Source of the DNA: Siphonodentalium dalli | Taxonomy: Eukaryota; Mollusca; Scaphopoda; Gadilida; Siphonodentaliidae | DNA: 64,000 nucleotides | Reading direction: 5' to 3' | Assembly (NCBI GenBank): GCA_032622095.1 | Contig: CP136066.1 | Span: 48,828,911 to 48,892,910, forward strand | Shown here: positions 16,786-36,443 of the stretch, piece after piece | Layout of the letters: every line of letters starts with the position of its first letter | How positions within the stretch are numbered: position 1 is the first letter of the stretch | Made by a program: the position numbers and the translations under genes | The notes under the pieces: model-generated | What the model was told of the DNA's origin: nothing | The model's input: the letters and a program-made list of their open reading frames with translations, nothing else | Database searches by the model: none

Positions 16786-19700
16786 GTAAGATTTTTCAGA
16801 AGGTATCAAAAGATAAATATCTTCCCACGAGTCTTTGTTTATGCACAATTCATACCATATTTTCCTCCACATTGTCCCATGATATAGCTCCCTCCCTCCA
16901 GCACCACCCCCCCCCCCCGCAGCATCAGCCATGGCATAATTGGCATGTTATGGCCATGATGGGGCCAGCTCCACTCTGTAAGTGCCATCGCAGACGCTAC
17001 TATTAAAATCGTAAGTGGGGAAAATTGCAGGTGGAGAAAAGTGACTTGCCCGCAGGAATACAGGAGAAGTCGGCCCCGCGCGAAGTCGGCCCCCACGCGA
17101 AGTCGGCCCCATATATAACAGAACCATTGTTTAAAATCATTCTTTATTTATTTTATTATATGAAATATGAAACTGATAATAATGATAATGCAACTATCAT
17201 ATTTTTACAACTGAGCCGCTGTCAGTGACTGCCCATGAGTGATCGAAGATCATTTTGTTACGTACAGAACGTCGAAATACCAAGCTGAACCAAGCTGAGG
17301 AAAAATAAGACGGAACATGACATTCAAAGCATATTTTGTGCTGTATACTGAAAAAATAAAACAAAATAATGCAACATGGCGTAATTTTATTTGAGTTTTG
17401 ATGACATAGCGAGCGTAAATCTATAGAAAACTGCGGTGATCGCGAAAACTTCAGCTTGGTATTGGTTCAGCTTGGTATTTCGACGCACCCTTTTGGTATT
17501 ACAACTAAGAAAACATTGCGGACTTCACAATTAGCCTACACAAACACCACACTAACTCAACTAAATTTAAGTTGGGGACCTCACAATTAGACAAAATAAA
17601 CACTATCTCAATAAAATTAAGCCGATTTAATCCCTTCTAATTAATGGGGCCGACTTCGCGTGGGGCCGTCTTCATATGGGGCTGACTTCGGGCTGGGCCG
17701 ACTTCTCCAGATACCGCCCGCAGACGCTGCAATGTTTGCAGCTACGATTTTATCCACATGATCGATCACATGATAGCAAAATGTTATACCACATTATCCG
17801 CATTATGCAACTAAATACATGTACATGGCATGTATCTCAATTTTCTAAACTAACAAGTTGACTCGAAAGTTCAAGTGAAATTGAATATTTTTTTATTTTG
17901 ACATTGTTGTGCCTGTCAACTCAACAGGCTCAGCTGCCCCAATTGAATTTCAACAATTGCGACAGCCCTCTACTCCTTGCCTGATATGTGGTATAGGCCT
18001 GCACTCCCTGTTGTGCCACATCTCCACCAATGTGGCCTCGTTTTAAACTTCTTGCAAGTCTGCAAGAAGTTTGTAAACTCTGCGCCATTTTTGAATGTTT
18101 TCTTTTCGTGGTATTTACAGCATGACCAGTGTGACAGTGGTCATGTGACAGCTACAATCGCGCGCGTTGCCAAGGTCACGCCGCGATTTTCCTGGTAAAA
18201 TCAAACAGTGCTTGATCGCTACGATTTGGCTACGATATTGTCGTGGGCATGCGCATTGGATGCTTCCTCCTACGATTTTCCCCACTTACGATTTTAATCG
18301 CAGCGTGTGTGGTGGCACTAAGTGAACGTTCAGACGACCATTATTCAAGTGTAGGAATCGGGCCCAACAAAATAGTGGATAGTTTGTTCACATGTTTGCG
18401 ATGTCGTCGTAGATGATGATATCGTGGGTTTGTTCCTAAGCATGTGCTTGACTAACCTACGATCTTTCCAGCTACAAATTTGATGTACACGACTACGATT
18501 ATATCGGATAGTGGATGTAACCAATGATACGCCACGATTTCGCATCTAACATCAAACAGTGCTTGATATTATTTTTGACTTGCGATCTTGATGTGAGCAT
18601 GCGCAGTCCAATTACTGGTTACCGTACTTCCTACGACGAAAATCTTTCCACTTACGATTGAATCGTGGTCATATGAACGTTCACTAACATTATCTATCTC
18701 TATACTCTCACACACCTGGCTAACAAGCTTTAATGCAGAGGGATCAAGTACATATACTAGTAGATCCAGATAATTTGTCCAAGAATTTTGCCGAACCTCA
18801 GACTCGGTGTGACTTCTTCATCACAGTAGGGATCTTTAAGATGCACAATCCGAATTAATGCTCCTAAATTACTATATCTTTGGCTTGGGGGGGGGTACAA
18901 ATTATTTGATCCGAGTTGAGGAGCCCACCCATCAAAGCTCAAGAGTTATCAGATATTGATTTTTGAAAGCTGATATTTTAATATTCCTCCTGGATTATTT
19001 GGCAGCCTGGCAAATATTCGAAGAATGCCGACCATCATACTCTCGATACCAAATTGCATTGAACAGAATGTTTATATCCGTATCCACATTGTATAACAAT
19101 TTGTTGTTGGAATCTGATGACATGCAGTCATTGGATTGTGTACATTTAAATGGCAAAATTGCTGAGTTCAGTTGGAAATATAGCATGTAGATATCTTTAT
19201 TAATTCCTCCTTCAAATAAATAAAGTAGCCATGTAATGAGCATCTTCAGGCTAGACTCGGAGATGCCATAACAGGGGCAGTTGCCCCCTTGCCCTCAGCC
19301 AGGAAAGGCAACTTTCTTGCTTCCGGCAGCCCTGGCTATATTCCATTTATAAACTACTATTATTATATCTTCATTTTCAGAGGTTTCGATTTTGTGGCGA
19401 TCTTGATTGCCCGGACTGGGTGTTAGCAGAAATAAGCACCCTATCCAAAATCGTGAGTATTTAAAGCTTATGATGTTTTATAGTTATAACTCATGGGAGC
19501 TATTTTTATCACATTTTTTTTATGCTCCTTTTGAAGAAAAATGACATACATTTGTATTATATTATAAGTCTCTCTGTCCGTCTGTTTGTTTGTTTTCATT
19601 TTCCGGATGATAGCTTTAGTAAGTCTGAACTGAATGGACTGAAATTTGGTATGTGGGTTTACTAGCACAAAATACAGGTCAAGTTCAAATTTGGTTCCGC

Positions 19701-22700
19701 CTGCAAATTTTCACCAGAGTTACGACCCTTTATGTTGGAATTTGCAATTAATTTTTGTTTCTGAATGATAACTCAAGTCAGTCTGAATTGAATGGAATGA
19801 AATTTGTTATGTGAGTTTACTATCCCAAAATACAGGTCAAGTTCAAATTTGTTTTCTGCCTGCCAATTTTTACCTCATTTAAGGCCCATTGTTGAAATTA
19901 CCCCAGGCGTATTTTGCCACGCCCTAGCGATGCTCTTGTTACTACTGGTATATAAGTTTCACTGCACATTAGTGTGTCCATCAACATTTTATTTAGATAA
20001 TGTTTTCTCAAAATCCATCCGGCCATTGCCGTCAATTTTTCAGAGAAGGTTCCTTGAAGGCCTTTGCAGATGGCTTCATCGTCATTGCAAGTGGCACATG
20101 ATCCGCGATTTTTTCTGCATTTGACACTGAATTAGAGCAAATGCTATGCAATCACATCGCACATTGCAGGCATCATGATGAAAGTGTCAAAAGTAAGAAT
20201 AGGACTAAGACCTAATTGAAGGTGGCATGCGGCACATATATGTGACAGTTTCCGTCATTTACATATACCGAGAGTGACAGATGTCAGAAATGGATCAACC
20301 CTGTCAAAGCTGGTTTTTTCGACCGTCAGTCTGGGTTTACAAATGATGTAGCTACGATCTTGTGAAATGGATATCTATGTGGATATCCGTTATGTGGCTA
20401 GCCACATAACAGCGTTCGTTTGAACCCTCAAAAATGATCGACTTGACTTAATCAGCCTATTTAATTTTGAAGACTCTTAAAAGTTGGAAACTAAGATGTA
20501 ACAGGACGAGAGAGAGAAGTGCGGGAGTCGCACTGAAAGTTGGCAGCACCACCGAAATCCCAAGCCGGTCACCCATCCAAGTACTAACCGAGCTCGACAT
20601 TGCTTAACTTCGGTGATCACACAAAGTGTCTAACGGTTGTGACCAAGAGATCTAGACCTCTCGAGCAGAGAGTCATCGGCCTTCTATATTTACAACGTGA
20701 CCACTACAAAGGAAAAGTCCATAGATTTAGACATCCACGGTCTGTCCACAGGAGGTGTTCAGACACCTATTCCACTGTCCAAGTTGCTGTATGAAAGTTT
20801 CTGAGTTTCAATCAGCTACTTTTGCTATAATTCTTACATGTTCTGATTATATAATCTGAAATTTTGATAGCCACCTAAAAATTTACCAACTACTTGAGAA
20901 TCCACATAAAAATTTAAGACACATAATTATTTTAGCCACATAGCTCATAGCAACATATCTGCCCGTTTGTTAGTCCGTCAGTCAGTTCATCCATCCCAGA
21001 TGGTTTCCGGATGATAACTTTAGTTTTAGTTATCTGATTGTTTTAAAATTTTGTATTTGGATTTATACCCACATGGAAAACACGTGTCAACTTCGGATTG
21101 GGGTTCAGTCTGCCCATACTCGAGGTGATAATGGGTGAACATCACCAACTTCAACTGTGGAACCTCAATCTGATCCTTGGTTCCCCATAGCAGCTGAGGT
21201 TTAAGCCGATTGATGTTCCCAGAAGGTGAATTTGGTTGTGCTATCCCGCGGTATAGCATCACTAATATTACCCTCTGGGAACCTCATTCTGCAAATGACA
21301 GACATACTATTTCAAGCTTGGACTCATTCCAAGAAATAAATAATTAATATACAAACCTGTTTTGGTTATTTCATTTATTGACCCCTGGTGATTTAGTGCT
21401 ATCAATATTTCTTTGCAGACATCTGTGAAAATGAAGCTGCTATGTTTGCAAGTTATAAAGGACTTACTAGGTGATAAACTGGATGTGAGTATAAGTTATA
21501 TGTAGATGTCTGAAAAGAGGTCATATATCCTTCATATAACCAACTCTAATAACACAAACTGAGTGCGAGCATTTAGATATACCTTGTAGTATATCACTAT
21601 TACACTTATTAATTTAAAGTGATTTGAAACACTGTTGTGACTCTCAGTGAATAAGCTTGCTCAACGTAGGTACATGTATTACAATAAATTTTGTATCAAG
21701 ACTGCCAGCATACAACTCCATTATTTTGTTAAATTAACCCTTTACCCAACAGAACGGCCCTGTGCCAATGCATTCTCTTGTATATGCGAGTCGACCATAG
21801 GTCGCCTCGCATATATAAGAGAATGCATTGGCTTAACACATTAAAAATTATAAAATTGTTAAAGAATGTAAGAAAAACTGATAAAAAAGTATTAAAAAAA
21901 GAGTCTTTTTAGGCCAATGCATTCTCTTATATATGCGAGGCGACCTATGGTCGACTCGCATATATAAGAGAATGCATTGGCACATGGCATAACTGTAACC
22001 ATCACAATGTGGTCAATGAACCGGTTCCAATGATATCCATATTTGTATGGTGTTATTGAGACAGACCGAAGATATTTTAGGCTGTTGAAGCTTTATTTGG
22101 GCGTTTTTGGCCGTTTTGTTGGGTAAAGTGATTTGAAACACTGTTGTGACTCTCAGTGAATAAGCTTGCTCAACGTAGGTATTTCAATAAATTTTGTATC
22201 AAAACTGCCAGCATACATCTCCATTATTTTGTTTTATAATACCCAGACATACGGGGACATAAGAACCGAAACCTAATATAAAACGTCCTGTATGTGAAGG
22301 TCGTTCATTGCCAGAGATATGTCCTCCTGACGAATCCATTAGCTGTTATTTATTTCTGATTCCCAACATTCTAAATACCTATTTTCCGCTTGGTCTTAGT
22401 AAACAATTCCCAAATTATATAATTAACGCGTCCTAATGTTTTCAAGCTATGCTGACAATCAAACATAAATTATTATATTGTATACTGCACTCTAGCAGTT
22501 TACTGTTTGCAAACTATATAGATACTAATAAAGAACATTGGTGATATTCAGTATGAATCAAATATTAAGATGGGTATTCCGCCGCTATGCCACTGATTCT
22601 CTTCTTTATATTTGTTTGACATACCTGTAGAGTCCTTGTGACATACTCCACAATATGTATCCAGGAAATGTCATTATCTGAATGCATACCAGTGGTTTTA

Positions 22701-25700
22701 GGACTTACCCTCATTCTAGCGGCTTTCCTAGCAACCCTTGAATAATTATACAACATTATTATGTAAAATTAAATAGAATGACTCTCATTGGAGAAAACAT
22801 TTTCGTTTGTTTGTCTTGATTTTTTTGGGTGGAACCAATGATTGTTTGTTTACAATTTTTGAGTAGTTCAGATGTTGTCTTTTAAAGGTACTCAACCCGT
22901 AAAGAGGGTCCCCATCTCAACAGATTCCAACAACAACAATCCGATCGGAGGGTCCTATATTACTATTTCTTTGGCTTTGGGGGTAAAAAATATTTGATTC
23001 GAGTCGAGGAACCCATCAAACAAAGCTCAGAGTTATTAGATATTGATTTTTGAAATTTGTTATAAACTCGAGATCAGTACTACTAACTGCCGTAATCTGC
23101 TCTGGATGTGTTCTCCAAATCTATTCAAACAGACAAGGATGGATAACTCTAAAATCAAGTGGTAATTTTAACGCAATTTTGACTGAGTTCTGGGCCAGAT
23201 AGTATTCCCGATAATGAAAAATAATAGATTTCTAAAATCGATATCTAACAAATCTGAGCTTTGATGGGTGACTTCCTCGACTCGAATCAAATATTTTTGA
23301 CCCCCGAAGCCATTGAAATAGTAATTGAGATGAGTTTTATCGGGTTGAGTACCTTTAAGAAATGGCACCGCAAATATTGTTGAATATTTTGAATGAGTAA
23401 TAATATATTAGTTTGATGAATAATAGTTTGCACGTAATATGGCTTAACAATTATTGATGTAAAAAATTAGTCTGAACTGACAGAATACAACGTAAATTTA
23501 AGTTGTGTGGGGAGGTGTCTTAGACCTCCCATAGCAGCCAAACAGTTGGATATTTGAGGATTTAATCCATCTTCGCTAAATGGATTCTCCCAATCAGTTA
23601 TAAAAGTGGACATTGGGATGTTCTATTATTCAATTGGAGGGATGTTCAGATAATAAAAGAAGATGAAAAGCTAATACAAGAAAGGTTCATATTAAGATAA
23701 TAAGTTCAACAAACTATCTATGAACTTATTATCTGAACATTTCCATAGAGAACTACTCGTCAATGAGTGTTTAAAATAAAAGGGTTAAAGTTTGTTGCAT
23801 CCTTGTCTGGTTCTGCGAATATTGATAAATTTGCTAAATATTTAAAGATACATAATCCAAATTATCTGACGTTTCTGATGATACAGGGACCATCAAATCA
23901 GATTGTGTACCTTTAACCCTTTACCCAACAGAAGGGCCCTGTGCCAATGCATTCTCTTATATATGCGAGTCGACCATAGGTCGCCTCGCATATATAAGAG
24001 AATGCATTGGCTTAACACATTAAAAATTATAAAATTGTTAAAGAATGTAAGAAAAAATGGTAAAAAGTGTTAGGCCAATGCATTCTCTTATATATGCGAG
24101 GCGACCTATGGTCGACTCGCATATATAAGAGAATGCATTGGTACAGGCTTAACTGTAACTATCACAATGTGGTCAAGGAGCCGGTTCCAATGATATCCAT
24201 ATTTGTATGGTTCTATTGAGACAGACCGAAGATATTTTAGGCTGTTGAAGCTTTATTTGGCCGGTTTTGGCCGGTTTGTTGGGTAAAGGGTTAAGCTGCT
24301 TGGGTTCTGTTGAACATAAATTACTAACCTGGAAGATACTTTTGAAGTTCATAATCAAACTAGTAAACTATATCTCTCTTAAATTTCAGTACCAAAAAGT
24401 AAACAAATTGACTGCTGATGCCAAATTTGGTAAGTTTTAAGTTAGCCGATGTGTGTGAAATTTTTGTATGACCCCATAGCCTCCAGGAGGTATTCGATTC
24501 TCTGATCTCCCTTGGAATGTATGATATCTATAGCAATCCATTTTTTAAAGTGGTGTGCTCGTTTTAAATTTAAATATTTTTTAATTTATATTTTTACACG
24601 TTTTAAGAACACGCTGACTAAATTGAACTGGCACAAATGAAACAATCTCAAATTTACCTGAGAAATATAAGAAACGAAACATGTTTTTTCAGTGCTATAC
24701 AACAATGTTTTTGTAGATAATGCCATGAATCTCTACTCTGGTTAATGCCTGTAGAGATCATATTCCACCAGTACAAAACTTGGATCTTTTTGAAGTCTTG
24801 ACAGGGAACCTAATAAATGCAAAAAAATAATGTGGGGAAATTGTTTCTTAGTTATTATCTGTTCCTTTATAATAATGTACTTCGCTGTAGGTGAAGATCC
24901 CAAGTCGAAATTGCATGGTTTTCCATGATGTTTGTGAGCTGATATCGCAATAAACATTGAATTAATTACCCATGAGAAATTCCATAATTGTAAATAACGC
25001 GAAGCAAAATCGCTCACAAGGTCGAAGATTAATTAAGGAACAGATAATAACTTAGAAATATATTCCCCGTGTTATTTTTCGACTTTATAAGGTTCCCTGT
25101 CAAAACTTCAAAGAGTTTGCAGGTTTTGTACTGGTGGAATATGATCTCTACAGGCGTTAGCCAGAGTAGAGATTCATGGCATGATCTAATGTTTTTTTAA
25201 ATCTTCTGCATAGGTATGTTTTGCGATACCTCTTACCAAACTATATACAGTAATGCCCTAAATAATATACCCCTTAACCACAGCAGAATTATGGGTAACT
25301 TTTCAGGATTTAGTCGGAAATATGGCTTGTTACCATTCATCGGAAAGCTCTCTCTTTCCGACTAAATCCTGAAAAGTTACCCATAATTCTGCTGTGATTA
25401 AGGGGTCGCTTTCTTAGGGCATTACTGTATTTGAATGAGTCATGTCCGTTTAATTTCTATTTTGTTTTCACAGAGAGCGGTGATATTAAAGCTAGCATCG
25501 CGGCACTGTCCCTCGTCATATCTAGTGCCACCAAGTACAGCGTCGATGGGGAAACGTTATCTAATGAATTACAGCAGCTGGGTCTGCCTAAAGGTACTGT
25601 CATGGTACTAACAGGAATGTTCAAGGTTCAATGTGATGAAATCTAATTAATTACAATGAATTACAGAAGCTTGGTCTGCCTTAATGGTACAGTTATTCAG

Positions 25701-28700
25701 ATCCTATTAGTGTTCAAGATTTAATTTGATTTAAAATTACCATCATCATCAATCAAGGCTACAAACTCGAAGAATGCAACAACTACCGACACGGTCAAAG
25801 TTAAAATTTCTGTCATATGCCCCCAAGCTGAAATGAGAAAGAAAGTTAAATAAAACAGATGTTTATGGTATAGATAGTTGTAACAATGCTCAAAGTTTGC
25901 CAGACGGAATCTGTTATGGGTTTACAACCAGATTTACATAATTTTGAGCTATTCTGTAAATCTGTAAGGCTAATTATAAGGTGCTGAAACCATATTATGC
26001 ACATTAATGGCACATTCTTAGAATACACTTTCTGGGAAATATTCAGTATATAATATATCATAAAATGTTAAAATACAACTCTGACACCTGCGAATGTCCT
26101 GAAAACCTGATTGTGTGATGTATTTTTTTGCACACAAAATTACAATGTTTGCTCAATATTCTCTCTTTTTCATTTAATGTTTTCAATAGTATAAACTGGG
26201 AAGATTTGACAAATGGATATAATATTATTCAGTTTATTTCTGATTTACTGGTCAACCAGTTTGTGTTTACGACCAGGTAGTTTTCCATTTCTTTTTCGCA
26301 GTTCTTCCTTCAGTTGTTTGAGTGAATAATTGTCATATTTTGGAGCAGATTCTGCCATCATGAATTGATATACTAGTACATCATTCATGGTTTCCATTTA
26401 ATAGTTGTCTATGCGAGAAATTGTGTTCTGTATCAGTATCTGTAGATATTTCAGTGCAGGAACCAATTCTGGTTGTAGACACACTGTGTTAGAATATTCT
26501 GTCCTCGGGCTTACATGTAGTAAAAATAGAAACGTGGTCACAGTGGTGTTAAAATATATTTTTATGTTGTTGTTGTAACTAGATGTCTAGAACCCTGAAT
26601 ACATCTTTATTAAAATTATTACTTTCATTAACCCTTTCTATACTAAATGGATTCTCCCATATAGCTATAAAAGTATACATTGGAATGGTCTATTATTCAT
26701 TTTGGAGTGATATTCAGGTAATGAAAGCAGACGAAAAGATATTACAAGTACAGAAGGGTTCTTATTCATCGGTTGGAAATGTTCAGATAATAAGTTAAAT
26801 GTTGAACTTATTATATGAACATTTCCTAAGGGAACTATTCGTCAATGAGTATTTATTTAGTACCGAAAGGGTTAATTACTGATTGTACAACTCGTTTATC
26901 AGCCAACTGTTGTGCCTATTGAACGGTTGAACCAAAAGTTATGAAAATGAGCATCAATTTTTATTTGTTTTATTTCTAGAACATTCCACAGCCCTGTGCA
27001 AGTCGTACAGCGACAACACAGAGAAACTACAAAATAAATTCCGAAGCCAGAGCCTAAGATGTGAGTAAAATTTCAGTAGTCTCATGGTGGGGAATCACGT
27101 CATTTCAAGGTCATGGTGGGGAATCACGTGGTTTCGAGGTCGGTGATTTCAGTAGACTCATGGTGTGGAATCACGTCATTTCGAGATCATGGTTGGGAAT
27201 CATGTGGTTTTGAGGTCATGGTGGGAAATTACGTGGTTTCGAGGTCGGTGATTTCAGCAGACTCATGGTGGGGAATCACATGGTATTGAGGTTGGTGAGT
27301 ACCACGCATGCAAAATGGCTGAAGCAAATGCAAATGCACAAAAACATAATATATGAGGAACTGACACAAAACATATCATTTTGACTGTCACAAGCCTTTT
27401 ATTTTTTAAAACAAGTTGATACCATATCTGTTCCAAAATTCTGACAAAAGTGGCCAGTCGTAGGTTCGTGAGTATTAATAAACCTGTCCATACATCTAGG
27501 AGAATTCTTCGACTGACAACTTTGGTCAGAATGTTAGAGCAAACAACTGTGAGTTTGGACACAAATGAGATATCAACATGTTTGAAAAATAGTATAGCAT
27601 ATACTCATACCGGTAGCTGCCAAAACACTATGTAATATGTCATATCCTAGTTTATTACCTTTTTTCTTGTTTCTGGTTATGTTTGAGATCGCCTCGACCA
27701 TTTTGAATGCATGATACTCCTCAACTCGAAACCACGTGATTCCCCACCGTAAGTCCGTAAACACTGCAATCATGACAGTATGCTGTACATTTGTGATAGA
27801 ATCAGATGGAGCAAATCTCTGAATATCTGACACCAGGCACATACAGTAATGCCCTAAATAAATGACTCCTTAACCACAGCAGAATTATGGGTAATTTTGC
27901 AGGATTTAGTCGGAATGTGGCATAGGAGAGCTTTCCGATGAATGGCAACAAACCATATTTCTGAGTAAATCCTGTAAAAATTCCCAATAATCTGCTGTGG
28001 TTAAGGAGTCAACTAGGGAATTACCTAGGCTTGGTAGGGTAGAGACCCAACATGCTTTAGCATAGACTCTGTCTACATGTGAAATTAAAGAGGGTCAAAT
28101 TCTCAAAATTTATTATATCAAAATTTGTCTGGATACTCGATGTTTGTAGTACATGTACCATTTTTATAGTATTTGTAGCAATACATAAGTCACGATATAT
28201 TACCCTTAAGCCATCAGACAAAAATAAAAGCAATTTTGTGACTTTAGTAAGTAAGCATGTGACTTCACATATATGTTGCTTGGTTATAGTGGAAACTATT
28301 TTTTGGAAGTCCGTCTAAAGATTGTTCCGTTTGGTGAGGTTTTACTGTACCAATATCATAGAAAACCATGAAATCCTGTCCCCACGAAATAGCCTTTTGA
28401 AGATCAGAAACTTTTTACTGGTGAAATCCAGGATATTCATATAACATACATGTATCACCTCTTCATATTTCACATCTCACTGTTGACATTCCTTGTAGGA
28501 GAGTATGGGCCTCACCTCCTTTTTATTTTTTTCTCTTCTCAGTACCTTACCTAGAAAATGTCCAGTGGCGGGTCGACTACATTCTCAGCTCCAGTGAACT
28601 CAAGGTAGATTTATAAATCCCACATTATATGAAATCTCCTGTTTCTATTTCATTCAGGTAATGAATTGATTGCCAGGTATGTTTTAACCCTTTCAGTGCC

Positions 28701-31700
28701 AGGGGCCGATCTCATCGGCCCTAATTTACGGTCTGTAAAATCGGCCCTAAAAAATTAAAAAACAAAAAATTCAATTTTTTTTTTTTTTAAAGATTTTTTT
28801 AGGTTGATTTTTTTTGGGTATGCTTAAGCATGCTATAGCAAATTTAAAAACAAACTGGATAAACCCTTAAGAGCATGTTATAACTCAAAACTATCACCAA
28901 GTATTCATTGTAATAATTTTGATGCCCATGAAAAACGTAAGATTCCCTGGCACTTAACCTACAAAATAAGTCTGTTAAAGAATATAAGAAAAAATTATTA
29001 AAATTGTAAAAAATTGTAAAAAATAATAACAAATGATGATAAATTGTTAGGCCAATGCATTCTCTTATATATGCGAGGCGACCTATGGTCGACTCACATA
29101 TATAAGAGAATGCATTGGCACAGGGTATATGGGTTGATACAAAAATCAGTTTCCACACCTAGCCTGTCTCAGGATGTGGAAAGTCTAGATTGATCTACAC
29201 AGAAAACTACTTAATTGTTAAGCTAGTACACCAGATTTTTTTTTCTCCTGATGATAACCTTAGATAATGTTGACTTAATGGAATTAAATTGGCATACATG
29301 TTTACAAACATAAAATACAGGTCAAGATCGATTTTGGGTTCTGTCCCCCAATTTTACTGGAGTTACGCATCTTTTTTTACTTTGAAATTCGGGTTTTCTT
29401 GTTTCCCTGTTGATAACTGTAGATACACAGTAGGGTAATGGGTGTATTATGTCCAATGGGTGTATTATGTCCAATGGGTGTATTATGTCACACCCAGTGG
29501 TGCCCTTGTTTGCAAATTTTTTAACAATATGTCAGGAAGTATGAGATGGAATTTCAAAGACATTTGTCATTGGGCTAGGAAGTAATACAAATATGAACAA
29601 TTGTTTGCTTTAACCCTTTTCAGTGACAGGGGCCGATCTCATCGGCCCTAATTTACGGTATGTATTATAATCGGCCCTAAAAAAAATTATATATATATTT
29701 ATTTTTTTTGGTTGAATTTTTTTGGGGTATGCTTAAGCATGCTATAGCGAATTTAAAAATGAAACAAACTGGATAAAACCTTAGGGGCATGTTATAACTC
29801 AAAACTATCACCAAGTATTCATAGTAATAATTTTGATGCCCATGAAAAATGTAAGATTCCCTGGCACTAAACTTACAAAATAAGTCTGTTAAAGAATATA
29901 AGAAAAAATTATTAAAATTGTAAAAAATTGTAAAAAAAATAACAACAAATGATGAAAAATTGTTAGGCCAATGCATTCTCTTATATATGCGAGGCGACCT
30001 ATGGTCGACTCGCATATATAAGAGAATGCATTGGCACAGGGTATATGGGTTGATACAAAAATCGGACCTGGCACTGAAAGGGTTAAAGCATCATTGATGA
30101 GTAGTTATCCATTAGGAAATGTTCAAATAATAAGTTCAACAAACGGTGTTTGTTGAATTCATTTTCAGAACATTCCCATCATTGAATACGATTCCTTCTG
30201 CACATTCTATTTCTTAACACCCCCTCCAAATAAATAATAGACCATTATAATGTATACTTTTATGACTGAGTGGGAGAATCCATTTAGTATATAAAGGGTT
30301 AAACGCTGCATATCAGGCTTTTTGTCAAATCTTTAGTACCGATTAAATTGGGCAATATAAATTCCGACATCATTTAACAAGGGGTACAACTCCTGCTTAA
30401 ATATTAAAATTCACCAGAATTCTATGTTTGCGGAAAGTGGAAATGCCAGCCTCACACCTTTGAACAGTAATACATACATCATTTTATTTTCATTTAGGAT
30501 ATAAATGAACCAAGTATCCAGCTAAAGATGAATGTCAAAGACCCTGATATGGAAGAATCAGAAGTGGTATCATTCACAGTATCATCTGATAAATTCACTG
30601 TCCTCTTACATGGTAAGTCTAACGGTATGAGCTGATAAATTCACTGTCCTCTTACATGGTAAGTCTGACAGTGTCAGCTGATAAATTCACTGTCCTCTTA
30701 CATGGTAAGTCTGACAGTGTCAGCTGATAAATTCACTGTCCTCTTACACGGTAAGTCTGACAGTGTCAGCTGATAAATTCACTGTCCTCTTACACGGTAA
30801 GTCTGACAGTGTCAGCTGATAAATTCACTGCTATCTTACATGGTAAGTCTGACAGTGTCAGCTGTTAAATTCACTGTTCTTTTACATGGTAAGTCTGACA
30901 CTGTCAGCTGATAAATTCACTGTCCTCTTACACGGTAAGTCTGACACTGTCAGCTGATAAATTCACTGTTCTCTTACATGGTAAGTCTGACAGTGTCAGC
31001 TGATAAATTCACTGTCCTCTTACATGGTAAGTCTGACAGTCAGCTGTTAAATTCACTGTTCTCTTACACAGTAAGTCTGACACTGTCAGCTGATAAATTC
31101 ACTGTTCTCTTACATGGTAAGTCTGACAGTGTCAGCTGATAAATTCACTGTCCTCTTACACAGTAAGTCTGACACTGTCAGCTGTTAAATTCACTGTTCT
31201 CTTACACGGTAAGTCTGATAGTGTCAGCTGATAAATTCACTGTCCTCTTACACAGTAAGTCTGACACTGTCAGCTGTTAAATTCACTGTCCTCTTACACG
31301 GTAAGTCTGACACTGTCAGCTGATAAATTCACTGTTCTCTTACATGGTAAGTCTGACACTGTCAGCTGTTAAATTCACTGTTCTCTTACACAGTAAGTCT
31401 GACACTGTCAGCTGATAAATTCACTGTCCTCTTACACAGTAAGTCTGACACTGTCAGCTGTTAAATTCACTGTTCTCTTACACGGTAAGTCTGATAGTGT
31501 CAGCTGATAAATTCACTGTCCTCTTACACAGTAAGTCTGACACTGTCAGCTGTTAAATTCACTGTCCTCTTACACGGTAAGTCTGACACTGTCAGCTGAT
31601 AAATTCACTGTTCTCTTACATGGTAAGTCTGACACTGTCAGCTGTTAAATTCACTGTTCTCTTACACGGTAAGTCTGATAGTGTCAGCTGATAAATTCAC

Positions 31701-34700
31701 TGTCCTCTTACACAGTAAGTCTGACACTGTCAGCTGTTAAATTCACTGTTCTCTTACACGGTAAGTCTGATAGTGTCAGCTGATAAATTCACTGTCCTCT
31801 TACACAGTAAGTCTGACACTGTCAGCTGTTAAATTCACTGTTCTCTTACACGGTAAGTCTGATAGTGTCAGCTGATAAATTCACTGTCCTCTTACACAGT
31901 AAGTCTGACACTGTCAGCTGTTAAATTCACTGTCCTCTTACACGGTAAGTCTGACACTGTCAGCTGATAAATTCACTGTTCTCTTACACGGTAAGTCTGA
32001 TAGTGTCAGCTGATAAATTCACTGTCCTCTTACACAGTAAGTCTGACACTGTCAGCTGTTAAATTCACTGTTCTCTTACACGGTAAGTCTGATAGTGTCA
32101 GCTGATAAATTCACTGTCCTCTTACACAGTAAGTCTGACACTGTCAGCTGTTAAATTCACTGTTCTCTTACACGGTAAGTCTGATAGTGTCAGCTGATAA
32201 ATTCACTGTCCTCTTACACAGTAAGTCTGACACTGTCAGCTGTTAAATTCACTGTTCTCTTACACGGTAAGTCTGACACTGTCAGCTGATAAATTCACTG
32301 TTCTCTTACACGGTAAGTCTGATAGTGTCAGCTGATAAATTCACTGTCCTCTTACACAGTAAGTCTGACACTGTCAGCTGTTAAATTCACTGTCCTCTTA
32401 AACAGTAAGTCTGACACTGTCAGCTGATAAATTCACTGTTCTCTTACACGGTAAGTCTGATAGTGTCAGCTGATAAATTCACTGTCCTCTTACACAGTAA
32501 GTCTGACACTGTCAGCTGTTAAATTCACTGTTCTCTTACACGGTAAGTCTGATAGTGTCAGCTGATAAATTCACTGTCCTCTTACACAGTAAGTCTGACA
32601 CTGTCAGCTGTTAAATTCACTGTTCTCTTACACGGTAAGTCTGATAGTGTCAGCTGATAAATTCACTGTCCTTTTACACAGTAAGTCTGACACTGTCAGC
32701 TGTTAAATTCACTGTCCTCTTACACGGTAAGTCTGACACTGTCAGCTGATAAATTCACTGTTCTCTTACATGGTAAGTCTGACACTGTCAGCTGTTAAAT
32801 TCACTGTTCTCTTACACAGTAAGTCTGACACTGTCAGCTGATAAATTCACTGTCCTCTTACACAGTAAGTCTGACACTGTCAGCTGTTAAATTCACTGTT
32901 CTCTTACACGGTAAGTCTGATAGTGTCAGCTGATAAATTCACTGTCCTCTTACACAGTAAGTCTGACACTGTCAGCTGTTAAATTCACTGTTCTCTTACA
33001 CGGTAAGTCTGACACTGTCAGCTGATAAATTCACTGTTCTCTTACATGGTAAGTCTGACACTGTCAGCTGATAAATTCACTGTCCTCTTACACAGTAAGT
33101 CTGACACTGTCAGCTGTTAAATTCACTGTTCTCTTACACGGTAAGTCTGATAGTGTCAGCTGATAAATTCACTGTCCTCTTACACAGTAAGTCTCACAGT
33201 GTCAGCTGATAAATTCACTGTTCTCTTAAATTCACTGTCCTCTTACACAGTAAGTCTGACACTGTCAGCTGTTAAATTCACTGTTCTCTTACACGGTAAG
33301 TCTGACACTGTCAGCTGATAAATTCACTGTTCTCTTACACGGTAAGTCTGATAGTGTCAGCTGATAAATTCACTGTTCTCTTACATGGTAAGTCTGACAC
33401 TGTCAGCTGTTAAATTCACTGTTCTCTTACACAGTAAGTCTGACACTGTCAGCTGATAAATTCACTGTTCTCTTACATGGTAAGTCTGACAGTGTCAGCT
33501 GATAAATTCACTGTCCTCTTACACGGTAAGTCTGACACTGTCAGCTGATAAATTCACTGTCCTCTTACATGGTAAGTCTGACACTGTCAGCTGATAAATT
33601 CACTGTTCTCTTACATGGTAAGTCTGATACTGTCAGCTGATAAATTCACTGTCCTCTTACATGGTAAGTCTGACACTGTCATCTGATAAATTCACTGTCC
33701 TCTTACATGGTAAGTCTGACACTGTCAGGTGTTAAATTCACTGTTCTCTTACATGGTAAGTCTGACACTGTCAGCTGTTAAATTCACTGTTCTCTTACAT
33801 GGTAAGTCTGACACTGTCATCTGTTAAATTCACTGTTCTCTTACATGGTAAGTCTGACACTGTCAGCTGATAAATTCACTGTTCTATTACATGGTAAGTC
33901 TGACACTGTCAGGTGTTAAATTCACTGTTCTCTTACATGGTAAGTCTGACACTGTCATCTGATAAAATCACTTTCCTCTTACATGGTAAGTCTGACACTG
34001 TCATCTGATAAATTCACTGTTCTATTACATGGTAAGTCTGACACTGTCAGGTGTTAAATTCACTGTTCTCTTACATGGTAAGTCTGACACTGTCAGCTGA
34101 TAAATTCACTGTCCTCTTACATGGTAAGTCTGACACTGTCATCTGATAAATTCACTGTCCTCTTACATGGTAAGTCTGACACTGTCAGGTGTTAAATTCA
34201 CTGTTCTCTTACATGGTAAGTCTGACACTGTCATCTATTAAATTCACTGTTCTCTTACATGGTAAGTCTGACACTGTCAGCTGATAAATTCACTGTTCTA
34301 TTACATGGTAAGTCTGACACTGTCAGGTGTTAAATTCACTGTTCTCTTACATGGTAAGTCTGACACTGTCAGGTGTTAAATTCACTGTCCTCTTACACGG
34401 TAAGTCTGACACTGTCAGCTGATAAATTCACTGTCCTCTTACACGGTAAGTCTGACACTGTCAGCTGATAAATTCACTGTCCTCTTACATGGTAAGTCTG
34501 ACACTGTCAAGTGTTAAATTCACTGTTCTCTTACATGGTAAGTCTGACACTGTCAGGTGTTAAATTCACTGTCCTCTTACACGGTAAGTCTGACACTGTC
34601 AGCTGTTAAATTCACTGTTCTCTTACATGGTAAGTCTGACACTGTCATCTGATAAATTCACTGTCCTCTTACATGGTAAGTCTGACACTGTCATCTGATA

Positions 34701-36443
34701 AATTCACTGTCCTCTTACATGGTAAGTCTGACAGTGTCAGCTGATAAATTCACTGTCCTCTTACATGGTAAGTCTGACACTGTCAGCTGATAAATTCACT
34801 GTCCACTTACATGGTAAGTCTGACACTGTCAGCTGATAAATTCACTGTCCTCTTACACGGTAAGTCTGACACTGTCATCTGATAAATTCACTGTCCTCTT
34901 ACATGGTAAGTCTGACACTGTCATCTGATAAATTCACTGTCCTCTTACATGGTAAGTCTGACACTGTCAGCTGATAAATTCACTGTCCTCTTACATGGTA
35001 AGTCTGACACTGTCAGCTGATAAATTCACTGTCCTCTTACACGGTAAGTCTGACACTGTCAGCTGATAAATTCACTGTCCTCTTACATGGTAAGTCTGAC
35101 ACTGTCAGCTGATAAATTCACTGTCCTCTTACACGGTAAGTCTGACACTGTCAGCTGATAAATTCACTGTCCTCTTGCATGGTAAGTCTGACACTGTCAG
35201 CTGTTAAATTCACTGTTCTTTTACATGGTAAGTCTGACACTGTCAGCTGATAAATTCACTGTCCTCTTACACGGTAAGTCTGACACTGTCAGCTGTTAAA
35301 TTCACTGTTCTCTTACATGGTAAGTCTGACACTGTCATCTGTTAAATTCACTGTTCTCTTACACGGTTAATCTGACACTGTCAGCTGTTAAATTCACTGT
35401 TCTCTTACACGGTAAGTCTGACACTGTCAGGTGTTAAATTCACTGTTCTCTTACACGGTAAGTCTGACACTGTCATCTGATAAATTCACTGTTCTCTTAC
35501 ACGGTAAGTCTGACACTGTCAGGTGTTAAATTCACTGTTCTCTTACACGGTAAGTCTGACACTGTCATCTGATAAATTCACTGTTCTCTTACACGGTAAG
35601 TCTGACACTGTCATCTGATAAATTCACTTTTCCTCTTACACGGTAAGTCTGATAGTATGAGCTGATAAATTCACTGTTCTCTTATACGGTAAGTCTGATA
35701 TAGACTCCGACGAAGGTTCGAGATTCAATTCGATTCAAAGTCTAATGGGAGATTCTTTTATATATCGATTATTGGTTACCCCATTTATTTCCTCATTTCA
35801 TTTTTTGAAATTTTAACAGAATTAAGCAACTATTAATTATTGCCGTGTAAGACTCTAGTCAATACACAAACACATTGCAAACTTCACGAGTTAAGCAATA
35901 GAGTTACAGAGTTATCGCGCTTGTGAAAAATACTTTTGTTCCATCAGGGTACTTAACCCTTTCAGTGGCAAGTCCGATTTTTGTATCAACTTATATAACC
36001 TTGATCATTTTTCAAATTTATTGATTATAATAATGTGATACATTGATGGAAAGAGCTCTTAGAGCTCTTTCCATCAATGTATCACATTATTATAATCAAT
36101 AAATTTGAAAAATGATCAAGGAAATATGGGTTGATACAAAAATCGGACTTGGCACTGAAAGGGTTAAACCTTTCATGACTGGAGCTTCCTGAAATTTTGT
36201 GAAAGCCCTGTGCCAATCTCCTATGGGAGATTCGAATATATCAGATACGGTACTGGTACAGGATCTTTTGTGCTGCATCAGCGCAGCTCCTTTAATGAAA
36301 GGGTTAGCTACTCAAATAATTAAGTAAAACTAATACAATATCTCCTATGAAACCGTCAGACCTATTTGGCTTTTTTCTACATTTTGTGTCTCATTTCAGA
36401 ATTAAAGCAAGCCCAAGCAATGATGGAGACGCTTGGAACGTAG
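16783..36443 (+). CDS. COMMD4: COMMD4, COMM domain-containing protein 4 (whole gene, nine joined exons)
   Basis: COMMD proteins form the heteromeric Commander complex with CCDC22 and CCDC93, which acts in endosomal recycling of membrane proteins; COMMD4 is one of the ten subunits. Joined exons 16783-16785 (proposed), 19381-19452, 21419-21484, 24390-24429, 25474-25593, 26980-27060, 28543-28604, 30498-30612 and 36400-36443 give 603 nt: 200 residues plus TAG. Human COMMD4 has 199. The start [20 protein letters not shown] is almost invariant in the family. The helical N-terminal domain includes LTADAKFESGDIKA and [11 protein letters not shown]. The COMM domain follows, with [12 protein letters not shown] and the tail [13 protein letters not shown]. 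All junctions are GT-AG and phase-consistent. Intron 8 is mostly a tandem array of its own 5' splice site. Confidence 0.95.
16981..18319. mobile_element. Second AGTGCCACCGCAGACGC element with nested insertions
   Basis: Ends AGTGCCATCGCAGACGCTAC and GCGTGTGTGGTGGCACT. The stretch 17057-17715 is a separate insert whose ends repeat GAAGTCGGCCCC. Inside it 17258-17495 is a further inverted repeat (CGAAATACCAAGCTGAACC). The right part (18080-18319) parallels 15,990-16,189. It lies in the proposed COMMD4 intron 1. Confidence 0.72.
18320..18680. mobile_element. Inverted-repeat element starting TGAACGTTCA
   Basis: AAGTGAACGTTCAGACGACC at the left and GGTCATATGAACGTTCACTA at the right flank a region of ACGATT motifs, related to the neighbouring family. 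Boundaries approximate. Confidence 0.5.
19381..19452 (+). CDS. COMMD4: COMMD4 exon 2
   Basis: The exon follows acceptor TTCATTTTCAG and precedes donor GTGAGT. Its 72 nt encode [19 protein letters not shown] then TLSKI, nearly identical to the start of vertebrate COMMD4. It is phase 0 at both ends. Confidence 0.95.
20537..20657 (-). pseudogene. 5S rRNA-derived relic
   Basis: The reverse strand matches the central part of animal 5S rRNA: GATCACCGAAGTTAAGCAA, then GAGCTCGGTTAGTACTTGGA and TGGGTGACCGGCTTGGGATT. This covers the region of the internal promoter boxes A and C. The 5' third (around 20625-20657) is recognisable but diverged, and the 3' end has changes (GGTGGTGCTGCCA instead of the usual CGGGTGCTGT). 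It lies in COMMD4 intron 2. It could be a lone pseudogene or the head of a 5S-derived SINE; a second copy was not seen here. Confidence 0.72.
21117..21316. mobile_element. hAT-like palindromic MITE fragment
   Basis: Contains GGTGAACATCACCAACTTC, the GAACCTCATTCTGCAAATG hairpin arm and ACAGACATACTATTTCAAGC at the right end. In COMMD4 intron 2. Confidence 0.65.
21419..21484 (+). CDS. COMMD4: COMMD4 exon 3
   Basis: The exon lies between TTTCTTTGCAG and GTGAGT. Its 66 nt encode [20 protein letters not shown] then LD, matching the LLC-QV-L-LLG stretch of vertebrate COMMD4. It is phase 0 at both ends. Confidence 0.95.
21618..22236. repeat. Direct duplication of ~115 bp flanking a MITE
   Basis: AGTGATTTGAAACACTGTTG through CTCCATTATTTTGTT occurs at 21618-21732 and again at 22126-22233. 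The second copy joins the MITE at the shared tetranucleotide AAAG. Confidence 0.85.
21738..22124. mobile_element. piggyBac-like MITE, right end lost at a duplication junction
   Basis: Left TTAA 21734-21737 and CCCTTTACCCAACAGAACG; the right end stops at TTGGGTAAAG and runs straight into a copy of the left flank instead of GGTTAA. In COMMD4 intron 3. Confidence 0.8.
22886..23354. mobile_element. TTAA-flanked element (AGGTACTCAA family)
   Basis: TTAA at 22882-22885 and 23355-23358; ends AGGTACTCAACCCG and CGGGTTGAGTACCT. Shares internal TTTTGATTCGAGTCGAGGA-type sequence with the copy at 51,992. In COMMD4 intron 3. Confidence 0.8.
23564..23790. mobile_element. TTAA-type MITE (TACTAAATGGATTCTCC subfamily), left end decayed
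   Basis: CTAAATGGATTCTCCCAATC on the left and AAAATAAAAGGGTTAA on the right, with a central inverted repeat AATAAGTTCAACAAAC. Related to copies at 26,632, 30,090 and 63,175. Confidence 0.6.
23917..24290. mobile_element. piggyBac-like MITE (CCCTTTACCCAAC subfamily)
   Basis: TTAA at 23913-23916 and 24291-24294; complete paired-hairpin structure. In COMMD4 intron 3, about 100 bp before exon 4. Confidence 0.87.
24390..24429 (+). CDS. COMMD4: COMMD4 exon 4
   Basis: The 40-nt exon encodes [13 protein letters not shown] plus the first base of a Glu codon. The acceptor is TTAAATTTCAG and the donor GTAAGT. It ends in phase 1, matching exon 5. LTADAKFESGD across this junction is a family hallmark. 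Confidence 0.94.
24720..25182. mobile_element. Inverted-repeat element (ATGCCATGAATCTC family)
   Basis: Long arms ATGCCATGAATCTCTACTCT and AGAGTAGAGATTCATGGCAT plus GAGATCATATTCCACCAGTA on both arms. In COMMD4 intron 4. Shorter relatives at 61,717 and around 45,958-47,052. Confidence 0.8.
25248..25427. mobile_element. TA-flanked palindromic MITE in COMMD4 intron 4
   Basis: CAGTAATGCCCTAAATAATA to TTAGGGCATTACTG with TA flanks, ending only about 45 bp before exon 5. Confidence 0.83.
25474..25593 (+). CDS. COMMD4: COMMD4 exon 5
   Basis: The 120-nt exon (phase 1 to phase 1) encodes [20 protein letters not shown], then [19 protein letters not shown] and the first base of Glu. The acceptor is TTTTCACAG and the donor GTACTG. 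It matches the human stretch through [14 protein letters not shown] diverged copy of its last ~30 nt plus donor sits 92 bp downstream in the intron. Confidence 0.95.
25655..25692 (+). repeat. Copy of COMMD4 exon 5 end plus donor in intron 5
   Basis: AATGAATTACAG, then AAGCTTGGTCTGCC and GGTACAGT repeat the exon 5 end and donor (25563-25600, AATGAATTACAGCAGCTGGG onward) with about five substitutions and one insertion. The offset is 92 bp. The copied reading frame now meets TAA (CCTTAATGG), consistent with release from coding constraint. Confidence 0.82.
26632..26871. mobile_element. TTAA-flanked MITE (CTATACTAAATGG subfamily)
   Basis: TTAA at 26628-26631 and 26872-26875; ends CCCTTTCTATACTAAATGG and TTTAGTACCGAAAGGG. 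In COMMD4 intron 5. Confidence 0.78.
26980..27060 (+). CDS. COMMD4: COMMD4 exon 6
   Basis: The 81-nt exon (phase 1 to phase 1) lies between TTTATTTCTAG and GTGAGT. It encodes [20 protein letters not shown] then RSQSLR, matching the human CRCYEEKQSPLQ-H-R--SLR stretch. A minisatellite begins about 8 nt past its donor. Confidence 0.93.
27068..27302 (+). repeat. Minisatellite in COMMD4 intron 6, abutting the donor
   Basis: Imperfect tandem copies of TCATGGTGGGGAATCACGTC with ATTTCGAGG and GGTGATTTCAGTAG spacers begin a few bases past the exon 6 donor. Sub-repeats of about 30 bp are grouped into a longer period. The unit does not obviously contain the exon end. Confidence 0.7.
27844..28022. mobile_element. 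TA-type palindromic MITE, decayed, COMMD4 intron 6
   Basis: CAGTAATGCCCTAAATAAAT on the left; the right end reads ACTAGGGAATTACCTA. Shortened arms. Confidence 0.7.
28543..28604 (+). CDS. COMMD4: COMMD4 exon 7 (COMM domain signature)
   Basis: The 62-nt exon encodes [20 protein letters not shown] then K, ending in phase 0 at donor GTAGAT. The acceptor is [22 protein letters not shown] is the opening strand of the COMM domain, with the conserved Trp. Confidence 0.94.
28688..29148. mobile_element. piggyBac-like MITE (CAGTGCCAGGGGCCG), right end truncated
   Basis: TTAA at 28684-28687 and CCCTTTCAGTGCCAGGGG at the left; the sequence leaves the family consensus at AAAAATCAG near 29148. In COMMD4 intron 7. 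Confidence 0.78.
29614..30082. mobile_element. piggyBac-like MITE (CAGTGCCAGGGGCCG), complete
   Basis: TTAA at 29610-29613 and 30083-30086; ends CCCTTTTCAGTGACAGG and CCTGGCACTGAAAGG. In COMMD4 intron 7. Confidence 0.82.
30090..30301. mobile_element. TTAA-type MITE remnant (CTAAATGGATTCTCC subfamily, inverted)
   Basis: GGGAGAATCCATTTAGTATA then AAAGGGTTAA at the right, with AATAAGTTCAACAAAC in the centre. It abuts the preceding element. Confidence 0.6.
30498..30612 (+). CDS. COMMD4: COMMD4 exon 8
   Basis: The 115-nt exon follows TTTTCATTTAG and ends CAT G|GTAAGT in phase 1. It encodes [20 protein letters not shown], then [18 protein letters not shown], matching EPMVHLRLEV and MSLSADKFQVLLAE of human COMMD4. 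Its last 27 nt (30586-30612) plus the donor are the founder-like first unit of the 46-bp array that fills the next intron. Confidence 0.94.
30586..35700 (+). repeat. 46-bp tandem array made of COMMD4 exon 8 end plus its 5' splice site (~110 copies)
   Basis: The array starts inside exon 8 and fills most of intron 8. Each 46-bp unit has CTGATAAATTCACTG, then a C/T-rich stretch ending TTACATG or TTACACG, the donor GTAAGTCTGA, and CACTGTCAG. The exon itself supplies the first copy. About 5.1 kb at 46 bp gives roughly 110 units. There are three zones: a 5' zone with TGACAGTG, a middle (about 31.06-33.47 kb) dominated by 92-bp dimers alternating ACACAGTAAG and ACACGGTAAG units, and a 3' zone with CATCTGAT and AGGTGTTA variants. 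The last unit resembles the first intronic one (GTATGAGCTG), as expected of array edges that escape homogenisation. Confidence 0.97.
35957..36163. mobile_element. Palindromic piggyBac-like MITE in COMMD4 intron 8
   Basis: TTAA 35953-35956 and 36164-36167, ends CCCTTTCAGTGGCAAGTCCG and CGGACTTGGCACTGAAAGGG. Nearly the whole ~207 bp is one palindrome centred on AAGAGCTCTTAGAGCTCTT. Confidence 0.85.
36168..36303. mobile_element. Short piggyBac-like MITE directly adjoining the previous one
   Basis: Starts ACCTTTCATGACTGGAGC immediately after the shared TTAA 36164-36167 and ends GCTCCTTTAATGAAAGGG before TTAG. It ends about 95 bp before COMMD4 exon 9. Confidence 0.75.
36400..36443 (+). CDS. COMMD4: COMMD4 exon 9 (terminal exon)
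   Basis: After acceptor GTGTCTCATTTCAG the exon completes a Glu codon and encodes [13 protein letters not shown] then TAG at 36441-36443. This matches the ELKQAQTLM-LG tail of vertebrate COMMD4. No AATAAA lies close by; the first I noticed is at 37528-37533, so the poly(A) site is unresolved. Confidence 0.93.

Follow-up and report, generated by a model that had tools for sequence, protein, structure and literature searches.

In the 64,000-nt stretch of Siphonodentalium dalli DNA analyzed here (the window), the intron that follows the seventh coding exon found in a COMMD4-like gene is filled for the most part by tandem copies of that exon's own 3′ end and 5′ splice site. With 110 further donor positions lying downstream of the real one, the array is very probably an expanded, variable minisatellite that arose across the donor and is tolerated because the exon-proximal donor suffices.

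The COMMD4 gene and its donor-bearing array

The gene lies on the plus strand of the window and was traced as eight coding exons from splice phase and a tblastn search with a human COMMD4 protein query. Once spliced, the exons form an open frame of 600 nt that begins in the first one found and ends at the stop, and the protein from the last three exons contains a COMM domain (PF07258; E = 2.2e-17). When the donor at 30613 is joined to position 36400, the end of the spliced protein (17 residues) resembles the corresponding end of human COMMD4. No start-codon (ATG) exon was located upstream of the first exon found, which opens in phase as if after M. The first-pass annotation numbered the exon at the array as coding exon 8; it is the seventh of the eight found, and the higher number fits only if a separate start-codon exon lies upstream. 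Coordinates of these and other features are collected in Table 1. An interspersed element that contains a long palindrome (TTCTCTTATATATGCGAGGCGACC...) occurs twice in the intron preceding the array exon, at window positions 28690 to 29130 and 29620 to 30080, and a long near-perfect inverted repeat around GAGCTCTTAGAGCTC lies directly downstream of the array (window positions 36030 to 36120).

Table 1. Features of the two COMMD4 copies and of the arrays within them (window positions unless another sequence is named)
Feature	Position	Strand	Basis
Six upstream COMMD4 coding exons	19381-19452, 21419-21484, 24390-24429, 25474-25593, 26980-27060, 28543-28604 (span 19381..28604)	+	tblastn, splice phase, open frame
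COMMD4 coding exon, seventh of eight found, COMM domain; last 34 nt are array unit 1	30498..30612	+	PF07258, tblastn, open spliced frame
Authentic 5′ splice site GTAAGT (unit 1)	30613..30618	+	Exon phase, junction with exon at 36400, same site in second COMMD4 copy
Intron holding the array, 5,787 bp	30613..36399	+	Splice junctions
Last COMMD4 coding exon (14 residues)	36400..36443	+	tblastn, spliced frame
46-bp tandem array, 111 donor positions, 110 exact GTAAGT; unit of 34 exon nt and 12 intron nt	30579..35700	+	TRF, donor anchors
5′ half of unit 2 (GTATGAGCTG edge variant); collinearity with second COMMD4 copy stops	30625..30647	+	Copy comparison
Array core zone (donors of units 13 to 54), much two-unit (92-bp) alternation of CACA/GTAAGT and CACG/GTAAGT	31163..33049	+	Unit list, lag analysis
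Terminal unit (GTATGAGCTG edge variant again); collinearity with second copy restarts at 35682	35655..35700	+	Unit list, copy comparison
Second, short donor-spanning duplication; two units in window copy, the second one diverged	25565..25690	+	Copy comparison
LQQLGLPK-exon donor array, about 10 units	L003 9137-9901 and adjoining L012 start, C6 near 48979600-48980500	minus	Sequence comparison

TRF reported a single array at 30582 to 35698 with a period of 46, 110.9 copies, and 91% matches, in agreement with the earlier count of ~110 copies. Anchoring on the donors gave 111 units, all with an exact GTAAGT except unit 104, which reads GTTAAT. Consecutive exact GTAAGT motifs are 46 bp apart in 105 of 109 intervals, the remaining four being 44, 47, 63, and 92 bp long. 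The donor-anchored units read GGTAAGTCT (86 units), AGTAAGTCT (24 units), or GGTTAATCT (1 unit). Unit 1 consists of exon positions 30579 to 30612 followed by GTAAGTCTAACG and matches the majority unit at all but 7 of 46 positions (5 of the differences fall among the 34 exonic positions), which bears out the proposal that the unit is the exon's own 3′ end with its donor and that the exon is the first repeat. By hand calculation, the chance of so good a match to unit 1 anywhere in the window is ~1e-8. The division of the unit first proposed, 27 exonic nt and ~25 nt beyond, had to be corrected to 34 exonic and 12 intronic nt, since GTATSA recurs at the edges (31 + 15 in the TRF frame); edge units 2 and 111 both carry the variant GTATGAGCTG.

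Head-to-tail units of 46 bp in 111 copies fall within the range of minisatellites (units of ~10 to 100 bp), and the array also has the local homogenization and higher-order structure of one. Interior units are homogenized and edge units are divergent, and for units 13 to 56, the mismatch between units reaches its minimum at lag 2 (2.02, versus 3.98 at lag 1). Among 107 regular units, a set that excludes unit 1 and three irregularly spaced units, there are 37 distinct types with a mean pairwise difference of 7.1%, and the differences come mostly from a handful of common variant positions. Since this mean divergence exceeds the 2.3% mismatch between the two assembled copies of the gene (see below), the units cannot all have been copied recently from a single sequence; there must have been either several diverged founders or an old array that the other copy has since lost. 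A small number of founder units probably carried the diversity from the start, with a good part of the copying apparently recent. Considering that assemblers can mis-size arrays, the copy number might be suspected of being an assembly artifact. However, the window has no gap, and its units vary in zones, with private variants and the many distinct types just described, as in real arrays; we regard an artifact as extremely unlikely.

Fifteen variants are rare (seen once or twice), and two of them fall in donor positions +1 to +6, both in unit 104, where ~2.0 would be expected (6 of 46 positions). On these 15 variants, no excess conservation of the donor motif over the rest of the unit was detected. 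Outside the array, its DNA matched only the second COMMD4 copy in a search of the 2.2-Gb assembly that skips very common words (of 50 matches, 49 fell within the array). An origin as a dispersed satellite or transposon was rejected, as this whole-genome search found no other loci at that word setting. A genome-wide pattern search for generic donor spacing, with a spacing of 25 and not 46, was swamped by unrelated arrays (460 forward and 1,941 reverse; reversed-pattern controls, 1,024 and 901).

A second, inverted copy of COMMD4

A protein search of the same assembly recovered a second COMMD4 copy that is inverted and ~116 kb away, with exons at C6:48975334 to 48987327; a scripted search placed its last exon at C6:48963126. 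Much of the neighborhood is present twice in this inverted arrangement (window positions 1 to 64000 and C6:48914977 to 49108476). The second copy starts at the first base past a 100-N gap (48914877 to 48914976), and a further 100-N gap lies 193.5 kb on, at 49108477; the stretches read were 48914977 to 49016000 and 49095000 to 49124970. The inverted arms match at 48770000 with 49065913 and at 48735145 with 49094955, and the last matches before the gap at 49108477 are at 49094955 (1.6 kb) and 49104789 (170 bp). For a probe at 48700000, itself partly a common repeat, no mirror partner was found among the 40 candidates scored of 10,386, and a probe from locus L018 for the extent of the inverted copy was a high-copy repeat and uninformative.

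The copies mismatch at 1,239 of 54,021 aligned columns (2.3%) in 24 non-overlapping collinear blocks of at least 500 bp. Near the gene, the mismatch is 430 of 25,166 (1.7%) in 14 blocks that were chosen by eye and exclude those beyond window position 36375. Since the 24 blocks hold only 53,408 of 101,024 nt (53%) of the right side read, up to 49016000, insertions and deletions between the copies are extensive. The coding sequences differ at 10 of 600 nt, 9 of these differences being synonymous and the exception being M166K, and no break in the coding frame of the second copy was seen across its eight exons. A count of nine synonymous differences over 600 coding nt seems high compared with the 1.7% flank mismatch, and four of the nine sit in the exon adjoining the second array described below. 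In the last intron of the second copy (~12 kb), a further large insertion with GC-rich, coding-like sequence precedes the last exon (L003 1 to 2030, minus strand).

We consider that the second copy is probably the individual's other allele, an unpurged haplotig contig left in the scaffold. The earlier description of the gene as single-copy fails for the assembly, which has two copies, but may be true of the living animal should these prove to be alleles. The rival reading is a true inverted segmental duplication in which the array expanded (or shrank) in one paralogue. In its favor, the two copies share one assembled chromosome, and their matches extend as far as ~180 kb from the axis. A duplication would be consistent with two open frames whose differences are mostly synonymous, and with copies that differ so greatly by insertions and deletions that barely half of the right side is collinear. 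This duplication is weighted higher because the mismatch is 2.3% over the 24 blocks versus 1.7% near the gene. However, the second copy begins right after one gap, the other gap lies beyond the last matches, and in our judgment a mismatch of 2.3% would suit alleles of a heterozygous animal. Near-identical kinesin matches also occur in sets, on C7 (207.98, 209.49, and 209.79 Mb) and on C6 (54.1 and 54.5 Mb), which suggests that the assembly holds other leftover copies. A true duplication therefore seems unlikely, though it deserves some weight. Gene counts from this assembly may be inflated by leftover haplotigs.

At the array junction, the second copy has unit 1 and half of unit 2, a 2.2-kb stretch, the terminal donor, and the same downstream flank. 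Its two array donors are 2,208 bp apart, with one more GTAAGT within the inserted stretch, which includes an element with AGCTCAACTT/AAGTTGAGCT ends and 164-bp repeats. The same junction has 111 array donors in the window copy versus 2 in the second copy, the copies being judged allelic from the contig gaps. Considering that the second copy retains an open frame with only 2 array donors, the long array looks dispensable.

COMMD4 contains two arrays that span a donor, and each copy of the gene has one of them in a long form and the other in a short form. In the second copy, the exon ending in ...LQQLGLPK carries nine donor-bearing units that are nearly identical and spaced by 82 or 92 bp, and a diverged terminal unit. 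The window copy, in comparison, has just two: the first unit and that same terminal unit, the latter differing at 1 of 70 nt between the copies.

Minisatellites at other exon boundaries

The frequency of arrays at exon ends was estimated from 30 loci (96,171 nt) around the best-scoring of 123 kinesin-domain exon matches, a small sample of score-ranked exons in which match ends stand in for exon ends and three locus pairs overlap. TRF arrays with a period of at least 20 cover 5.74% of these loci and 5.87% of the window minus the main array. One of 60 kinesin match ends lay in or within 10 nt of an array, versus 3.4 expected (60 × 0.0574). That end has a donor-side array of 3.1 units of 60 bp, at an exon reading ...SSLANLGNVIMALANK/GTATAA (L051 1594 to 1779; L051/L033). 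An acceptor-side array, which takes in the intron end, the acceptor, and the exon start, was found at a kinesin-like exon outside the 30 (L028 337 to 488, minus strand); its 82-bp units number 1.9 by TRF, and inspection adds a third, diverged copy further upstream. Comparison of the kinesin loci with themselves also picked up, in the upstream part of L042, a weakly matching internal copy that looks like an exon, together with weak matches in L033, L043, and L044; by inspection, none of these clearly spans a splice site. A 65-bp array of 13.7 copies at L034 2325 to 3213, where no kinesin match is listed, has a unit that contains the donor-like TTGGTGAGTAG.

Minisatellites can thus lie across either end of an exon, and among the counted ends their frequency was no higher than expected from their density. 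This small pilot suggests that splice-site arrays are an expected by-product in minisatellite-rich genomes and not a one-gene curiosity. The first-pass annotation had set the COMMD4 array apart from a random minisatellite. The array instead behaves like one: its donors show no excess conservation, their number varies from 111 to 2 between the assembled copies, a second donor-spanning array in the same gene is long in the other copy, and further arrays lie at kinesin exon boundaries.

Predicted splicing at the array

Donor 1 has a predicted U1 pairing of −9.1 kcal/mol, equal to the best among the seven real COMMD4 donors. The claim of ~110 donors downstream of it agrees with the 110 further positions found, of which 85 are predicted to pair with U1 as well as donor 1 or slightly better (−9.1 or −9.3 kcal/mol), 24 at −5.6 kcal/mol, and 1 at −2.8 kcal/mol. 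In silico, splicing from any of the downstream donors would lengthen the message by ~46 nt per unit and bring in a common stop 17 nt past the real donor. All 110 would give the same truncated protein end, with identical last 10 residues and a predicted length of 193 residues versus 200 (counting one residue for the unlocated start). Nonsense-mediated decay follows a 50-nt rule. The distance from the stop to the last junction is 23 nt in silico for donor 2 and 69 nt for donor 3, with ~46 nt more for each further unit, and decay would be expected from the third donor on. An AG stands directly before TAAGTC in 24 units (23 CACAG and 1 AACAG). The 23 AG units in the three commonest contexts have 10 to 11 pyrimidines in the 15 upstream positions, versus 11 to 15 for the eight real acceptors; judged by this composition, cryptic acceptor use at array units is possible.

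A selected regulatory device, in which many U1-binding donors tune COMMD4 output through competition, U1 retention, or a shunt to decay, would be consistent with the exact GTAAGT in 110 of 111 donors, with the strong predicted pairing of most downstream donors (85 of 110), and with the early stop to which they all lead. However, the second copy has an open frame with only 2 array donors, the donor shows no conservation beyond that of the unit around it, and arrays at the sampled exon ends are no commoner than chance; selection of this kind is highly unlikely. The same low probability applies to an expression rheostat set by copy number, in which natural COMMD4 alleles with 111 and 2 donors at one junction, and in trans 2 and ~10 at another, would divert transcripts to downstream donors and decay.

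Another proposal is that hairpins in the array RNA mask donors 2 to 111 while the real donor stays open, which would be why the gene works. Many units are indeed quasi-palindromes across the donor (CTTAC-ATG-GTAAG and CACTGTC/GACAGTG), and stretches of 92 and 141 nt fold better than shuffles (z of −2.2 to −4.2 in five of six stretches; −1.0 for a single 46-nt unit). The predicted cost of opening is 5.0 to 5.1 kcal/mol for donors 2 to 5, versus 3.38 kcal/mol for donor 1. Over the whole array, however, the cost averages 4.15 kcal/mol, and donor 1 is harder to open than 23 of the 110 array donors. For 15 unrelated GTAAGT sites in the window, the cost ranges from 1.2 to 6.4 kcal/mol. Since the opening cost of donor 1 is not exceptional, masking by RNA structure was rejected, and we give it almost no credence.

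A minisatellite tolerated in place, which is the reading that we prefer, would have been seeded by a 46-bp tandem duplication across the COMMD4 exon/intron junction and would have expanded, with copy-to-copy homogenization, to 111 units on one chromosome. The array would be tolerated because of its position, downstream of an exon-proximal donor that is still intact and ahead of the remaining intron; splicing would join that donor to the last exon and remove the array with the intron. First-donor splicing would then be expected, with some leakage to decay. We infer the choice of donor, the direction of change, and the allelic status of the two copies.

The COMMD4 junction offers a natural test of spliceosome choice among near-identical donors in 46-nt steps, with 111 donor positions on one chromosome versus 2 on what is probably the other. 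The predicted readout is common to all of them, as every wrong choice would lead to an identical truncated end. Exclusive use of the first donor would mean that exon proximity beats donor numbers by a wide margin; if downstream donors are used, COMMD4 output should depend on array length.

Comparison with known systems

The human IFI6 gene (6-16, G1P3) contains a minisatellite with a 12-bp unit in a few tens of copies, and arrays of the IFI6 type are repeats that start in an exon and whose units hold donors. Turri, Cuin and Porter reportedly described the IFI6 repeat in 1995 as a provider of multiple splice donors. The COMMD4 minisatellite is alike in these respects: it supplies extra donors, its repeat starts in the exon, and the donor lies within the units. 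Unlike the IFI6 repeat, it has 46-bp units in 111 copies and lies in an unrelated gene, and its downstream donors are potential ones. The 1995 study is cited in PMC4526556, PMC2572611, and PMC3618361, and according to PMC4526556, two downstream repeat units of IFI6 are used as donors, resulting in three mRNA species.

PMC2812944 describes variable internal tandem repeats located at human exon-intron boundaries within segmental duplications; its gene-modifying repeats average 30-bp units in 4 copies, and 27 intron modifications are given after manual inspection. The COMMD4 array resembles these repeats in being a minisatellite, probably a variable one, at an exon-intron boundary. In contrast to it, the repeats in PMC2812944 are much shorter, lie in recent paralogues, and have RNA support. 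A likeness also exists to reported intron gain by tandem duplication, since sequence with splice motifs is duplicated and tolerated through splicing. In those accounts, a duplicated exon piece leads to a new intron, whereas in COMMD4 an existing intron grows from its 5′ end.

No described case with ~110 units was found in the open-licence literature on splice-donor minisatellites, exon-boundary repeats, and intron gain by duplication, nor was a paper linking COMMD4 with a minisatellite found in the open-licence literature. The first-pass annotation had known of no described case on this scale; this stands, in the literature covered, for the copy number, to which we found no equal, and not for the kind, which is already represented by human IFI6 (6-16) and by the repeats in PMC2812944. 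The COMMD4 array is valuable mainly as a natural experiment on donor choice: it belongs to a kind of array that is already known, and its unusual part is the copy number.
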